38,400 nt of DNA from Thiotrichaceae bacterium (GTDB lineage Bacteria; Pseudomonadota; Gammaproteobacteria; Thiotrichales; Thiotrichaceae), in assembly GCA_015486375.1 (NCBI GenBank), contig WFRR01000122.1, positions 1 through 38,400 on the forward strand, given 5' to 3'. The position numbers and the translations under genes are program-made. Shown here piece by piece: positions 20,021 through 27,211 of the stretch. The notes below the pieces were generated by a model. It had not been told where the DNA came from and ran no database searches. It saw only the letters and a program-made list of their open reading frames with translations. Numbering within the stretch: the stretch's first letter is position 1; each line of letters starts with the position of its first letter.

Positions 20021-20122
20021 TTAAAAAAGTCCTTTAAGGATAAAAATCACAAGCTCTGGATTCAAGATAAGCGCCACCAATACAATGGTTCTAGTAATTC
20101 TCACTAAATGTTTATCATTCAT
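20021..20122 (-). CDS. Mini membrane protein, 33 aa, between portal and protease
   Basis: ATG at 20120-20122, overlapping the last codons of the portal gene; TAA at 20021-20023 directly abuts the protease ATG (20018-20020). The 33 residues start M-N-D-K-H-L-V-R-I-T-R followed by one hydrophobic helix (T-I-V-L-V-A-L-I-L) and a second short hydrophobic segment (L-V-I-F-I-L-K-G-L-F). The fit to the base between two essential head genes argues that it is translated. Function unknown. Similar tiny membrane peptides occur elsewhere in this phage (27215-27337, 21398-21586). Confidence 0.6.
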   Translation of the reverse strand: MNDKHLVRITRTIVLVALILNPELVIFILKGLF

Positions 20123-21380
20123 TTTTCGCAATTCTTTTAATGGCTTGCATTTCTTTATCGACCTTTTTATTAACGGCTTGTTTTTGGTAATCGCCTGCAT
20201 CTACCATATTCATTGGTTGCAGGTAAATATCACCACCTTGGTCTTTGCTTAGAGGGGGCAGGTTTTCTAAGCGACGTATATCGTTCACTGAGAGCCAACC
20301 CCATTGCCTACCTTGTGCATAAGAGTTAAAGCGGGTTGCCATATCACCCCTTAGTAGCCCCGAAACATTAAATTCAATGTAGTAATCTTTGCGTTCTTCT
20401 TGAGTGAGTAAGTCGCGCATCATAGCGGCTTCATGGCGTTTAACCCACGGCATTAATGAGTACATAACATACTGCAATGCTTGGCTTTCTATATTGGAGA
20501 AGGTCGCTTTATCCAATGATTGAATCATGTGCGGCGGGATATTATAAAGCCGCGCCACCTCATTAATACTGTGCGCCCGACTAGCAAGCAGTTGTGCATC
20601 TTCATTGCTCATGCTAATGGATTTAAATTTAAAACCGTCTTGCAATACAGCTATATCATCAGATGCCCCTAGACCGCGATACAACTTATTCCATTGTGCT
20701 TTTAATGCGTCAACCTGCTCTTTACCTAATGGTTTTGCACCTTGGACCCAATCCCGTTCTAGTGTGCCTTTTAGGTTTGTGCCATTCGAGAATATTTCGC
20801 TCGCATGTTGTTCAGTGGCCAACGCTAAACCAATTCCCTCACGTCCTGCTTGAATAGGTGATAAGCCTACATAAGCATTAGTTTTAAAAGCGGCGATATG
20901 GTGCATTTTGGAATAAGGCACATTAAATTCATTTTGCTCTAGCAGATCAAATACGGGCATACGATTACTATCGACTCGTACAATAACTTGCGATGGGTCA
21001 AGCGGGATAATCGCGTCAATTTCACCCGAGCCGCTACGCATGACGCGATTGTAACTATTGCCGCGCAAGCCCAGCGCGCCCTGCTGATATTCGTGGTAAT
21101 CAAAAGCAGTCATCCAGTCATTAGGAGCGTGGCGTAATTTATCAAATAGGCTGTGGTCAGTGGCTTTGTCTCGATTGCCTTTTTTGTCAGTGCGTCGATA
21201 AAGATTGCAAGGCAGTTGTGCTACGGATTCTGATAACAATCGAACAGCAGCATACACAGCAATAAAACCCATCGCGCTCTCGGGTGTGACGTGAATGCCT
21301 GACTTGCTAGCAGACGCACCCCCTAGCGCAGAACTAAACCAAGATGACGGGCGAGATACACCCGTACTGCGGGTCGCCAT
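20115..21380 (-). CDS. Portal protein, HK97 family
   Basis: 421 residues from the ATG at 21378-21380, preceded by AGAGGA; a GTG at 21398 would add six residues. Features of the HK97 portal family are A-V-Y-A-A-V-R-L-L-S-E-S-V-A-Q-L-P near the N-terminus, L-R-G-N-S-Y and H-H-I-A-A-F-K in the middle. The clip/stem segment N-E-V-A-R-L-Y-N-I-P-P-H-M-I follows, then L-T-Q-E-E-R-K-D-Y-Y-I-E-F-N and the late N-D-I-R-R-L-E-N-L-P-P. It forms the dodecameric ring at one capsid vertex and docks terminase. The C-terminus is Lys rich. Confidence 0.95.
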   Translation of the reverse strand: MATRSTGVSRPSSWFSSALGGASASKSGIHVTPESAMGFIAVYAAVRLLSESVAQLPCNLYRRTDKKGNRDKATDHSLFDKLRHAPNDWMTAFDYHEYQQGALGLRGNSYNRVMRSGSGEIDAIIPLDPSQVIVRVDSNRMPVFDLLEQNEFNVPYSKMHHIAAFKTNAYVGLSPIQAGREGIGLALATEQHASEIFSNGTNLKGTLERDWVQGAKPLGKEQVDALKAQWNKLYRGLGASDDIAVLQDGFKFKSISMSNEDAQLLASRAHSINEVARLYNIPPHMIQSLDKATFSNIESQALQYVMYSLMPWVKRHEAAMMRDLLTQEERKDYYIEFNVSGLLRGDMATRFNSYAQGRQWGWLSVNDIRRLENLPPLSKDQGGDIYLQPMNMVDAGDYQKQAVNKKVDKEMQAIKRIAKNE

Positions 21381-21397
21381 CAGTCCTCTAAAAAACA

Positions 21398-21586
21398 CTA
21401 AGTTTTATCAGCCGAGGTTTGTTTAAGTAGCATGATTTCAGCTCCAATGCTGACATACCAGCTATACCACATACCAAACAACCCACCAAGAATATAAGCA
21501 ACGATGGGTTGCCATTGATACAAGCCGTAAGTAAAGGCTATAAAGCCCATCAAACCCACCAGAAATGTAAATATATCGCTTAGCAT
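21398..21586 (-). CDS. Small two-helix membrane protein
   Basis: 62 residues with two hydrophobic helices (about residues 4-20 and 28-46) and a short Lys-containing tail. It is the first substantial gene after the second late promoter and its terminators, directly before the portal gene. The stop TAG overlaps a possible GTG of the portal gene. Small membrane proteins before the portal occur in many HK97-type phages but their role is unknown. A role as holin is possible but the lysis cassette at 28.3-30.3 kb already has a better candidate. Confidence 0.65.
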   Translation of the reverse strand: MLSDIFTFLVGLMGFIAFTYGLYQWQPIVAYILGGLFGMWYSWYVSIGAEIMLLKQTSADKT

Positions 21587-21689: not shown

Positions 21690-21723
21690 AAAAAAAGCCG
21701 ATGATTTCCGTCATCGGCTTTTC
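21690..21723. terminator. Bidirectional intrinsic terminator
   Basis: AAAAGCCGATGA and TCATCGGCTTTT form a perfect 12-bp stem with a six-base loop, and runs of A and T on both sides make it active in both directions. It is the second of two terminators between the late promoter at 21811-21863 and the portal operon. Confidence 0.85.
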
Positions 21724-21732
21724 TTTGGGCAT

Positions 21733-21770
21733 AAAAAAAGCCCGTCGCAGTAAAGTGACGAGCTTTTTTT
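21733..21770. terminator. Bidirectional intrinsic terminator
   Basis: AAAAAAAGC-C-GTC and GAC-A-GCTTTTTTT form a stem with one mismatch and a ten-base loop, flanked by seven A and seven T. On the minus strand it lies about 50 bases after the predicted start of transcription from the late promoter, as tR' follows pR' in lambda. Confidence 0.8.
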
Positions 21771-21810
21771 GTGTTTAAATTCTTTCCTCAGGGACTTTTT
21801 ATCTGTTTGT

Positions 21811-21915: not shown

Positions 21916-22749
21916 TTACTTTTCTGTACTGATGACTTGCTGCTGTACTTCAAGGCGGGTTTGACGATCCTTTTCTGATGCTTGCACGATAAAGACAAAG
22001 AAAGCAACAATGAACATTGATATAATCAGCCCTTTGCCTTTAGTCGGTATAGTTCTACCTGTTTCCGCATAGAAGAAGTTTCTAGGGGCGGGTAATACAA
22101 ACAAGGCTGAAAGCACCAACATACCTCCCGCCAATGGTGCAAAAATCATAAATACAACACCTAATATTAGCAAAACATTCCCCATTAATAATACTAATAG
22201 ATTACTGACTTTCTTCTTGATAAGTGAACCCGTTGAGTGGCTCATCATTTTTATTAAATCTAAAGCAGCAATACAGTCCCCCAGGGCAGAATGATCACCC
22301 CCTTGCAGTTTTTGCCAACGCTCTACCTCCAGATAAGCAGAATAATTGAGCATAACGCAGTTGAATTCATAATCTTTATAAAGAAAGGTTTTATTTGCTT
22401 TTTTAAATGATTGTTTAAGTAGGCGTTTATCGTATTTTGCATTGTAAATTAAGACCAAATTCCCCTTTAGTAGCTGGGTGATTTCATCATAATATGCGTC
22501 AATGGTGGGACAATCCTTTAAATCCTTATATTCAATACCATGAATAGCAGTGGCATCTGCGAATTCTCTTTTCTCTAAAGGCTTAAAACGCTGATTCATC
22601 AAGGTTTTGCCTGATGTATTGATAATGGCCAATTCAATAATTTCATCATCATCCCCTAGTCCCGTTGTTTCTGTGTCCAAGATTACACACTTATTAGGGT
22701 TTCTTAATAGCATTCTTGCCCACTCTATTACTTCTGCCTTTTCACTCAT
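21916..22749 (-). CDS. Membrane-anchored DEDDh exonuclease (DnaQ-like)
   Basis: 277 residues from the ATG at 22747-22749 (AAAGGG upstream; a GTG at 22758 would add three). Residues 20-170 are a DnaQ-like 3'-5' exonuclease. Exo I is I-L-D-T-E-T-T-G-L-G (Asp25, Glu27), Exo II is Y-N-A-K-Y-D (Asp107), and Exo III is H-S-A-L-G-D (His153, Asp158), so the DEDDh set is complete. Unusually, the C-terminal third holds three hydrophobic helices (about 182-202, 204-220, 240-257) and a short charged tail, so the nuclease should sit on the inner face of the membrane. It shares an upstream palindrome with the next exonuclease gene. It lies in the accessory block between terminase and portal genes, so it is not a core phage function; defence or superinfection exclusion is a guess. 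Confidence 0.85.
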   Translation of the reverse strand: MSEKAEVIEWARMLLRNPNKCVILDTETTGLGDDDEIIELAIINTSGKTLMNQRFKPLEKREFADATAIHGIEYKDLKDCPTIDAYYDEITQLLKGNLVLIYNAKYDKRLLKQSFKKANKTFLYKDYEFNCVMLNYSAYLEVERWQKLQGGDHSALGDCIAALDLIKMMSHSTGSLIKKKVSNLLVLLMGNVLLILGVVFMIFAPLAGGMLVLSALFVLPAPRNFFYAETGRTIPTKGKGLIISMFIVAFFVFIVQASEKDRQTRLEVQQQVISTEK

Positions 22750-22810: not shown

Positions 22811-22822
22811 ATATGTATACAT
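22811..22822. promoter_or_regulatory. Palindromic operator candidate ATGTATACAT (copy A)
   Basis: The perfect ten-base palindrome ATGTATACAT (22813-22822), within ATATGTATACAT, lies about 64 bases upstream of the membrane exonuclease start. The same core sits about 70 bases upstream of the BRCT exonuclease start (23842-23851). On the minus strand both are followed by ATATT and TCAT. Likely a shared regulator binding site; no regulator is identified. Confidence 0.5.
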
Positions 22823-22896: not shown

Positions 22897-23772
22897 TTAT
22901 CCTCTCACCAAAGATAAAAAATCTTGCTCTGTCATTATTCTTATCGGTACTCCTTGCTTTGCAAGTTGCTCAACTTTCTTTTGCTTGCTGCTAATTTTAT
23001 TACCTCTTAGTGCGGCAACTTCAAAAGAACCAACTACAAGTATGGTTATGGTCTTTTTTCTAATGGTGGGCGAAACATAACAACCTGCTTCTGCGGCAAT
23101 TGCAGCAATTTCTCGACGTATTATACTTAGCTTCCCTGTAAAAACGACTTCCTCGCCAAATAAATCCCCATCAGGATTGCCTTCTATTTTGATTACCTTT
23201 AAATAACTGTTATCAGGTGAGTGGATTTGCATAATAGACTTAAAGGAAAGCTGCAACCACTCTTCAATCGTTTTTCCTGACTCTTTAATTGCCGCCAAAA
23301 GTATCATGCCTGATGCTCTCGCATCCTCCAAAGCATCATGATGCTGAAACTCAAACTTAATATAAGCAGCAAGATTAGCCAAACCATAACCTGCATAGGC
23401 GAATTGCTCCCATGTCCGTCTTGCGACTCTAGCACTATCCAGCCAAACACATTGAGGTGGAGGCACATTAATTTTAGCAAAAGCTTGTGTGAGTGCATTT
23501 TTATCAAAGATAGTATGACTAACCACCACAGGAAATTCTGATAAATATCGACTTAATTTGGAGCTAACCTCTAAAAAGGATGGAGAATCCTTAACATCAT
23601 CCTCGTCTATGCCATGAATATCAATATTCATCCAATGAAACCACGTATCAGGGTTAACTAATGTTGACCATGAATCAACTTCTTTTCCATTCTCGAATGC
23701 CACGACCCCTATCTGACAAATACTACCTTGATCAGGATTTGCTGTTTCCACATCAATTACCACGAATCGCAT
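22897..23772 (-). CDS. DEDDh exonuclease with C-terminal BRCT domain
   Basis: 291 residues. The exonuclease domain covers residues 1-165: V-V-I-D-V-E-T-A (Asp7, Glu9), S-H-T-I-F-D (Asp90) and H-H-D-A-L-E-D-A (His145, Asp150). A linker follows, then a BRCT domain from about 206 to the end (V-V-F-T-G-K-L ... I-A-A-E-A-G-C-Y-V-S-P-T-I-R-K-K-T). This two-domain type resembles DNA polymerase III epsilon-like proteins found in bacteria and some phages. The BRCT domain suggests binding to DNA ends or nicks. AGGAGAAATATTT precedes the ATG, a good ribosome binding site. It has its own upstream palindrome. Its partner is the membrane-anchored exonuclease downstream. Confidence 0.9.
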   Translation of the reverse strand: MRFVVIDVETANPDQGSICQIGVVAFENGKEVDSWSTLVNPDTWFHWMNIDIHGIDEDDVKDSPSFLEVSSKLSRYLSEFPVVVSHTIFDKNALTQAFAKINVPPPQCVWLDSARVARRTWEQFAYAGYGLANLAAYIKFEFQHHDALEDARASGMILLAAIKESGKTIEEWLQLSFKSIMQIHSPDNSYLKVIKIEGNPDGDLFGEEVVFTGKLSIIRREIAAIAAEAGCYVSPTIRKKTITILVVGSFEVAALRGNKISSKQKKVEQLAKQGVPIRIMTEQDFLSLVRG

Positions 23773-23836: not shown

Positions 23837-23856
23837 TTAATATGTATACATATTAA
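23837..23856. promoter_or_regulatory. 20-bp perfect palindrome (operator copy B)
   Basis: TTAATATGTATACATATTAA reads the same on both strands. Its core ATGTATACAT is shared with 22813-22822. It sits in the intergenic region upstream of the BRCT exonuclease gene, next to the remnant of another exonuclease gene. Confidence 0.6.
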
Positions 23857-23857
23857 A

Positions 23858-23920
23858 GTTCAGATTAATAATTTCATCATTATTATTACCTAACCCCTTT
23901 GTTTCTGTGTATAAATTCAA
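23858..23920 (-). pseudogene. Remnant of a third DnaQ-like exonuclease gene (Exo I region)
   Basis: Minus-strand translation gives Y-T-E-T-K-G-L-G-N-N-N-D-E-I-I-N-L. The membrane exonuclease has D-T-E-T-T-G-L-G-D-D-D-E-I-I-E-L at its Exo I motif, and the DNA is clearly related (both contain AATAATTTCATCAT and GTTTCTGTGT). The first catalytic Asp has become Tyr, and no open frame surrounds the segment. It is probably a decayed paralogue left by recombination within the accessory block. Both this segment and copy B of the palindrome lie together, so an older exonuclease gene may have been partly replaced. Confidence 0.55.
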
Positions 23921-25441: not shown

Positions 25442-27211
25442 TTAGATATAAATTTCCTCTTCATAGGCAGATTCAGTAGATTCTGTTTCACCACCTAGCA
25501 TTGCACCCACTGCCATTATCAATGACACGGCAGGGTCAATTTTTTCTGATGATTTTTTCTTGTCAGGTTTTACGTTTTCGGCAGGATCAACCACGGCAAC
25601 CACATTGCCCATCGCCCATTTTAGGACAGGATTACCATCATGGTGCAGTTGCTGGGACAAATACAGCCGCTCTAGCTCTTTGGTTGCAGGTGACATAGAT
25701 TTATAGCCCTGCCCCATTGCAACTAATTTATCTTGTAATTCTTCTTTTAAATCTTTAACAAATTGATGAATTGACCAGCGATCTACCGCAATATTAACCA
25801 GTGGTAGATCGTCTAATAGCCCTGTTTGTCCTGATAACCCTGAAATATCTGCGTGGATAAAGTTGTAATCGACTACATTGCCCGGTGTAGCAACCAGCCA
25901 ACCTTGTTCCACCCAAAGGTCGTAAGGTAAACCGCGCTCTTTGACAGCACGCAATACTGCTGCCTCGGGTATCCACGAACGCGACCATGCCCGTTTTTCA
26001 CCGTTGGGAAACACAGCAATCAAACTAAAGCTAGTCAGGTCACTGATACTACCTAAATCTAAACCGCCATAAACCTCACCTGCCCCTTTGAATGATTCGA
26101 GTTCATAGCTTGCCTTACATTGATCCCATTCTTCCAAGTTGCACCAGCTTATCGCATTAGAACGCCATACATTAAAGTTTTTAGTTAATACTCCAAAGCG
26201 AAACACGGGACTATTCAAAGCCTTGGTGACTTCTTTGCGTAGATAATCACGTTTGACTGATCCGCGCATCACGGCTTTACCTTTGCTATCTACACCAATT
26301 TTATACTCTAAATTAGGATTAGCTTTAATCCAGTTTTTTTCATTCTGAAAGTCATCTCCTGCATCCAAAGCGTAAATAATGCAGAAAAAGTTATCGTCCT
26401 GATATTTCCCTTCTAGTACATTGCAACCGTATTCTCGCTTCTGTAAACAAATAGATTCTTCTTTAGGTCGCACTCTTCCTGCTGTTGTGATTGCCCAACA
26501 CAAAGGTTGTGAACGTGAACCCATCCCTGAAATAATAACATTGTAGATTTCAGCAGTTTTATGAGCATGCAATTCATCAACTAACCCTGCGGAAGGGTTT
26601 GCACCGTCAATTGCCTCTGCATCGCGGGATAACGGGATAAAAAAACCATCATTTGAAGGGGCTTCAATTAGGCTTTCAGAGTCTTTTATTTTAATTAAAC
26701 GCTTAACTGAGGGCGCGTAACCAAGCATTTTTCGAGCATCGCGCCACAATCGTTTAGATTGTTCTCTGGTGGTTGCTGCTGCATAGACCTCGGGTGCGCC
26801 TTCGCCATCGAGCAGCAACATAAACCCACCTATACCTGCTAATTTAATGGTTTTACCGTTTTTACGTGCGACTTCTTCATAAACTTCATTGTATCGTCGC
26901 AATCCATCCTTGTTTTGCCAACCGAAAACCACGGATATTATCCAACATTGCCACGCCTCAAGCTGCAATTGCTTACCGCGCCACTCACCTTTATAGTGTT
27001 TTAGGTAGTAAAAGAACACTAAAACCCGTGCTGCTTCGTATTCATTAAAGCTTAAACCACGCAAATGCGCGTTTTCTCGGTCCTTTTCGTCCCTTTTTAC
27101 TGCCAATTTGACCCATTTACAAGCAACAACTGTCCCTGATATTACGTCTTTAGCGTATTCTCGAGCAAGCTTAAGGCAATGCTGAGCTATTTTTTGTTGT
27201 TGTGGGTTCAT
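25442..27211 (-). CDS. Terminase large subunit
   Basis: 589 residues. The ATPase domain has the Walker A variant A-R-K-N-G-K-T (115-121) and Walker B G-L-V-D-E-L-H (209-215), which is the HK97-type terminase pattern. The C-terminal nuclease domain has G-G-L-D-L-G-S-I-S-D-L-T (first Asp), D-R-W-S-I-H-Q-F and a final I-D-P-A-V-S-L-I-M-A (third acidic residue). It pumps DNA into the prohead and cuts it. The start follows the stop of a 40-residue membrane peptide by three bases. Confidence 0.96.
   Translation of the reverse strand: MNPQQQKIAQHCLKLAREYAKDVISGTVVACKWVKLAVKRDEKDRENAHLRGLSFNEYEAARVLVFFYYLKHYKGEWRGKQLQLEAWQCWIISVVFGWQNKDGLRRYNEVYEEVARKNGKTIKLAGIGGFMLLLDGEGAPEVYAAATTREQSKRLWRDARKMLGYAPSVKRLIKIKDSESLIEAPSNDGFFIPLSRDAEAIDGANPSAGLVDELHAHKTAEIYNVIISGMGSRSQPLCWAITTAGRVRPKEESICLQKREYGCNVLEGKYQDDNFFCIIYALDAGDDFQNEKNWIKANPNLEYKIGVDSKGKAVMRGSVKRDYLRKEVTKALNSPVFRFGVLTKNFNVWRSNAISWCNLEEWDQCKASYELESFKGAGEVYGGLDLGSISDLTSFSLIAVFPNGEKRAWSRSWIPEAAVLRAVKERGLPYDLWVEQGWLVATPGNVVDYNFIHADISGLSGQTGLLDDLPLVNIAVDRWSIHQFVKDLKEELQDKLVAMGQGYKSMSPATKELERLYLSQQLHHDGNPVLKWAMGNVVAVVDPAENVKPDKKKSSEKIDPAVSLIMAVGAMLGGETESTESAYEEEIYI

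Follow-up and report, generated by a model that had tools for sequence, protein, structure and literature searches.

SNIPE (PD-lambda-1) is an inner-membrane GIY-YIG nuclease that cuts phage DNA during injection (PMC13190303). As reported in 2026, its position at the membrane lets the nuclease tell phage from host DNA (PMC13190303), and its relatives carry varied membrane-targeting ends (PMC13190303). The protein considered here, a DEDDh 3'-5' exonuclease encoded in phage DNA, resembles SNIPE in placing a nuclease at the inner membrane (a predicted position in our case), in the variable membrane-targeting ends of its homologues and in being a single-gene accessory system (PMC13190303). However, the nuclease fold is another one, DUF4041 is present in SNIPE, the anchor of our protein is C-terminal, and defence has been proved for SNIPE alone. 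Pfam gave no match to a GIY-YIG domain or to DUF4041 in our protein, and a DEDDh domain was found instead; lacking both SNIPE domains, it is not a member of the SNIPE family.

Concerning the catalytic domain, the likeness is to the exonucleases of PHROG 192 (phage 186 Orf81, VP882, Salinivibrio SMHB1), with 32-39% identity to phage and plasmid members. These proteins are about 190 aa long, anchor-free and encoded in early or replication regions, whereas ours is anchored and encoded in the head module; soluble relatives are also found on plasmids. DEDDh domains combined with membrane helices occur too in gammaproteobacterial membrane proteins of about 700 aa, which differ in being chromosomal and widespread, in possessing an N-terminal sensor-like region and in not being phage genes. 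Two examples, in which the sensor-like region is N-terminal and the DEDDh domain C-terminal, are L314 28-2079 (PAS) and L008 43-2070, of a kind common in the gammaproteobacteria searched. The DEDDh part of our protein also matches PDC-S48, a candidate defence family of PADLOC-DB (E 2e-17), although the match extends over no more of the model than its catalytic part and PDC-S48 is itself a candidate whose function is unproved. The 7.9-kDa exclusion protein of phage Fc02 is DEDDh-like according to its authors (PMC9936078); we dropped a link to it, because it is too short for a DEDDh domain. As kinds, neither the exonuclease family nor phage morons nor membrane-held antiphage nucleases are new; an anchored phage DEDDh exonuclease is a variant of them, of which we found no description in the open-licence full-text papers searched.

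An intact exonuclease with a predicted membrane anchor

The window, that is the whole stretch of DNA analysed, is the complete contig C122 (38,400 bp) of a 2.67-Mb draft genome. It encodes the small and large terminase, portal, S49 protease, capsid, tape measure, endolysin, DnaB and a Dam-type methylase of a phage. An integrase model had no match among the window proteins scanned; the phage may or may not be temperate. The features around the anchored exonuclease are collected in Table 1.

Table 1. Features of the window between the portal and large terminase genes
Feature	Position	Strand	Evidence or remark
Portal protein (one head-module border)	20115..21398	-	PF04860
Small membrane protein adjoining the portal gene	21398..21586	-	homologue of Marinobacter phage AS1 gp3
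Two tandem intrinsic terminator hairpins, between exonuclease and portal module	21690..21773	-	fold z -7.6; similar stretch in relative phage
Membrane-anchored DEDDh 3'-5' exonuclease gene, 277 aa + stop	21916..22749	-	
Hydrophobic anchor, three segments (about residues 184-259)	21973..22200	-	hydropathy, AlphaFold2; topology predicted
RNase_T/DEDDh catalytic domain, residues 22-164 (D25, E27, D107, H153, D158)	22258..22686	-	PF00929, conservation, structure
Palindrome ATGTATACAT, putative operator/promoter element	22813..22822		64-73 nt upstream of anchored exonuclease start
Second DEDDh exonuclease, BRCT-like C-terminal region, without membrane anchor	22897..23772	-	PF00929 E 2e-20
Second ATGTATACAT copy	23842..23851		upstream of BRCT exonuclease
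44-nt remnant of exonuclease Exo I region	23867..23910	-	80% identical to anchored gene
Small ORF, 54 aa	24107..24271	+	weak antitoxin match (phrog_2268, E 0.006)
KilA-N protein, 334 aa	24347..25351	+	PF04383 E 9e-22; phrog_129, phrog_6287
Large terminase (other border of insertion)	25442..27211	-	PF20441/PF03354

The first-pass annotation had placed on these coordinates a protein with complete Exo I, II and III motifs, three hydrophobic helices and a short tail, and had considered that a frameshift or an assembly error might have created the fusion. The minus-strand reading frame is intact and its likely start is the ATG at 22749 (MSEKAEV...), with AAAGGGTGATAAGTATG upstream, so that the limits 21916-22749 were right and the product has 277 aa. 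PF00929 matches residues 22-164 (E 1e-14; MSEK numbering), and PHROG 192 matches the catalytic domain at residues 11-173 of the GTG-start frame (E 2.4e-37). In an alignment of 50 relatives D25, E27, D107 and H153 are invariant and D158 is nearly so; the Exo I, II and III-epsilon motifs are therefore complete, as had been claimed. All the features of the DEDDh superfamily were found, namely Exo I DxE, Exo II NxxxD, Exo III-epsilon HxxxxD and an RNase H-like fold.

In the AlphaFold2 model the nuclease core has a pLDDT mostly of 95-98, and the nearest solved folds are the exonuclease domains of Pol III epsilon, ExoX and DinG, with RNase T and ISG20 also among the structural matches. By sequence, the nearest relatives with solved structures are DNA-type DnaQ/PolC exonucleases. 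Membership of the DNA polymerase III epsilon family was tried and failed, since the score with TIGR01406 (51.9 bits) lies below the family cut-off of 222.7 bits.

Hydrophobic segments lie at about residues 184-202, 200-218 and 240-258 (Kyte-Doolittle, 19-residue maxima near 2.9, 2.5 and 2.4), all three within the C-terminal 100 residues, and a short tail follows the third. AlphaFold2 modelled segments 1 (174 to about 205) and 3 (239-276) as confident helices, while confidence is poor for segment 2 and the following loop, the pLDDT lying below 50 at residues 219-235. Three membrane helices are thus likely, as first described, but for this reason the second is not firm. Positive charges precede helix 1 and separate helices 2 and 3, a pattern which by the positive-inside rule would put the nuclease domain in the cytoplasm. 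Hydropathy, charge pattern and model agree, and from them we infer an anchoring in the inner membrane with a cytoplasmic nuclease.

The possibility of a fusion created by a frameshift was rejected, since the ORF bears no sign of one. As regards the assembly, the start of the gene and the flank just past it recur in an independent metagenome contig, while the fusion itself was seen only once, in this draft-genome contig, so that an assembly error is formally conceivable.

The three-helix anchor has matches in 2 of the 63 genomes of the family, the source genome and another one, in which the matching protein has no nuclease. A search for the module as a mobile domain gave no match in plasmids, phages or viral contigs. 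A weak relative exists in the same family (G011:C298, E 1e-5), with a common LP..RNF motif, and it is perhaps the case that the window protein and G011:C298 share a small reusable anchor module. The corresponding frame (L033 5650-6312) encodes a membrane protein with a long tail and no nuclease, in which LP..RNF in the second helix and the following I-P are as in the window anchor. Four further class-level matches were discarded because the frames behind them were transporter-like or the wrong ones and encoded nothing similar to the anchor.

An accessory insertion between the large terminase and portal genes

In Marinobacter phage AS1 the genes of the large terminase, of the small membrane protein gp3 and of the portal are directly consecutive, whereas in the window 3.86 kb separate the gp3 homologue from the large terminase gene. 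Only 190 bp lie between terminase and portal in Yersinia phage PY54, whose portal is among the closest to that of the window. Extra genes between core genes that are adjacent in relatives are what characterizes a moron, and the anchored exonuclease gene is, judged by this gene order, part of a 3.86-kb accessory insertion in the phage structural region. From the portal side the insertion contains the anchored exonuclease, a DEDDh-BRCT exonuclease and the 44-nt remnant and, on the opposite strand, the antitoxin-like ORF and the KilA-N gene; it ends in two strong terminators (z -7.6). The DnaB and Dam genes of the window are 10 kb from the anchored gene.

The DEDDh-BRCT gene has phrog_192 and DNA-ligase-type C-terminal matches, and it also matches PDC-S48 (E 1e-31). 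The N-terminal part of the KilA-N protein, encoded on the strand opposite to the late genes, matches the model of the BstA abortive-infection family too. The Exo I remnant, whose place is between the genes of the KilA-N protein and the BRCT exonuclease, points to gene duplication and loss within the insertion.

L003, the one close relative phage, with 77% identity in the portal, possesses the start of the exonuclease gene at 86% DNA identity, followed by about 200 bp of unrelated sequence, and the identity resumes about 32 bp past the gene. Since the rest of the gene has been replaced there, this is a spot at which genes are exchanged; since only residues 3-53 are kept, the anchored exonuclease is dispensable. 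In another frame, the replacing sequence (L003 412-614) ends in a different single membrane helix (...LLQFSATLVIIFLIVLAIKYT).

Membrane anchors among related phage exonucleases

When the full protein was the query, 84,980 species genomes yielded no second copy of the complete architecture, and the viral contigs gave no complete homologue but one truncated copy; because both scans work through short exact peptide patterns, they could miss distant copies. Because no complete homologue was retrieved in this way, viral DEDDh relatives were gathered by profile and DNA patterns and then screened for membrane segments outside the catalytic core. Clear segments of this type were present in 7 of the 132 distinct viral DEDDh frames, giving 8 anchored members out of 133 when the window protein is counted.

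The layouts are four, the window included: one or two N-terminal helices, and one or three C-terminal ones. L051 has two N-terminal helices, L153, L070 and L092 have one each, and L065, L235 and L303 have one C-terminal helix each. The starts of the four N-terminally anchored proteins are credible, all four frames having in-frame stops 3-57 nt upstream, Shine-Dalgarno-like stretches and continuous codon composition. Mapped on the best catalytic-domain tree, anchoring requires six changes, of which supported branches force at least three, so that in the PHROG 192-type family the anchored state has changed more than once; on this tree different anchors stand on at least three separate branches. 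The C-terminal one-helix proteins form one clade, for which the last pattern scan gave no further members. Among the HSALGDC relatives in genomes no anchors were seen. C-terminal 'hydrophobic' matches in L058, L060, L061, L259, L286 and L301 were dropped, corresponding to a shared soluble-looking domain, and in L159, L154, L136 and L304 N-terminal cysteine-rich extensions, zinc-ribbon-like by eye, replace the anchors.

These data also bear on other expectations of the first-pass annotation. That DnaQ-like proteins are normally soluble holds for the phage and plasmid family of PHROG 192, otherwise nearly always soluble (the lack of membrane segments is its usual architecture and no formal criterion), but not for the membrane-bound DEDDh proteins of gammaproteobacterial chromosomes. 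The gene is, as expected, a phage accessory and not a housekeeping gene, the anchor occurring in only two family genomes, in one of them without the nuclease. The suggestion to look for other DEDDh proteins with membrane helices led to the seven further members in viral contigs, mostly in structural modules or beside lysogeny genes. It should be noted that viral contigs were the collection searched most deeply, and that every anchored member was found there.

Concerning the neighbourhoods, L065/L267 has tail-tube/tail-assembly genes on one side and the tape measure gene on the other. L092/L270 is preceded by the tape measure gene and a lipoprotein-like gene and followed by an antirepressor. 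The flanking genes of L303 are lambda-type tail genes (minor tail/K-like, tail assembly/I-like), and a lipoprotein gene is there as well. L235 adjoins a minor tail gene and has lipoprotein-like genes nearby, while L051 adjoins an integrase, L153 an HTH regulator and L070 a ParB-like gene. Next to L267, L270 and L303 there are genes for lipoproteins or small membrane proteins. In L270 9170-14249, the L092 gene stands in an accessory run (lipoprotein-like, antirepressor, HATPase and, by eye, HicA-like genes) between tape measure and minor tail genes. For comparison we scanned, at each of eleven soluble loci, one or two neighbours, which were chosen by size. The neighbour was a methyltransferase at four loci, a replication gene at two and a neck gene at one (L069, DEDDh-BRCT), the rest being unclassified; a neighbour of L139 has a beta-helix. 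Structural neighbours were found for 5/8 anchored versus 1/11 soluble loci (Fisher p 0.04, or 0.07 if the L139 beta-helix is counted as structural), in a comparison that is small, only partly blind and includes some soluble loci that are close kin of each other. Given the small sample, the choice of neighbours by size and the kin loci, it is suggestive only that anchored copies favour tail and head modules and soluble relatives stand more often beside methyltransferase or replication genes.

Possible function of the anchored exonuclease

What we observed directly is the architecture, together with an intact set of active-site residues, a location typical of an accessory gene and repeated anchoring in related phage enzymes. 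Our tentative reading, to which we give somewhat less than an even chance, is that the window protein would be a membrane-tethered exonuclease for superinfection exclusion, SNIPE-like in its working but unrelated. The anchor would tie the product to the inner membrane, the catalytic domain facing the cytoplasm, and this accessory (moron) gene would shield the infected or lysogenic cell from other phages. The anchor would keep the nuclease where the linear phage genome enters, the 3' ends of the incoming DNA would be trimmed before end joining, and circularisation could be prevented. Host DNA would be spared because few of its free ends are at the membrane. For this protein we infer insertion into the membrane and its orientation, activity as an enzyme and the substrate, expression in the lysogen, and exclusion itself. 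The presence of an extra gene, the several types of anchor in relatives and their positions, mostly among virion genes or beside lysogeny genes, would fit exclusion. Against it, anchored members are few, the gene is dispensable in the relative phage, and a lone 3'-5' exonuclease may be slower than an endonuclease like SNIPE's on double-stranded DNA.

Other roles have to be weighed against exclusion. A tethered nuclease could degrade short RNA, cyclic nucleotides or DNA fragments produced close to the membrane by host defence, a counter-defence or signal removal protecting the phage and not the lysogen. We regard this as improbable: the membrane is the working site of many host defence effectors, DEDDh enzymes include RNA exonucleases such as the RNase T and ISG20 found among the structural matches, and the gene is on the late-operon strand, but its nearest solved sequence relatives are of the DNA type, its neighbours are not known counter-defence genes, and for a diffusible substrate the repeated gain of anchors would have no evident reason. 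The gene might also encode an anchored version of an ordinary phage exonuclease, used by the phage at a membrane site to replicate, repair or package its own DNA. Its position in the structural region, here and in four relatives, with DnaB and Dam far off in the window, makes this about equally improbable, and the phage 186 homologue Orf81 is annotated as not essential; on the other hand, soluble members are often in replication or methyltransferase modules and the PHROG label of the family is DNA polymerase exonuclease subunit.

Less probable again is an uptake barrier, in which single-stranded DNA arriving by conjugation or transformation, and not phage genomes, would be degraded. A preference for single-stranded ends is shared by many 3'-5' exonucleases, incoming plasmid or transforming DNA passes the membrane as a single strand, and plasmids carry soluble relatives of the enzyme; yet the anchored members all come from the deeply searched viral contigs, mostly within virion modules. 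A decaying accessory gene with no present function, its anchor gained by chance fusion, has a similarly slight chance in our estimate, since the reading frame is unbroken, no catalytic residue has been lost and relatives repeatedly show anchors of other kinds, even if L003 keeps only a fragment and the insertion holds the remnant of another exonuclease copy.

Returning to exclusion, a wider claim, which we consider possible but rather doubtful, is that phages have repeatedly tethered one kind of DEDDh exonuclease by different anchors, forming an undescribed class acting at the injection site, which would tell self from non-self by location and be carried as an add-on of tail and head modules, often with a lipoprotein partner. 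If true, location-based DNA immunity would be more general than one family, the same arrangement having been built several times from an unrelated fold, and the phage-carried anchored exonucleases would be a testable class of exclusion gene.

As for the control of the gene, the anchored exonuclease lies on the late-operon strand, and sigma-70 promoter-like matches (16 versus 15.2 expected) are at chance level; both points weigh against exclusion, and an upstream sigma-70 promoter was not used in our reading because of this count. The palindrome ATGTATACAT has only 2 copies in the window, against 0.13 expected, and each exonuclease gene has one of them 64-79 nt upstream. Its location upstream of both genes suggests either the putative operator of a common regulator or a duplicated control region.
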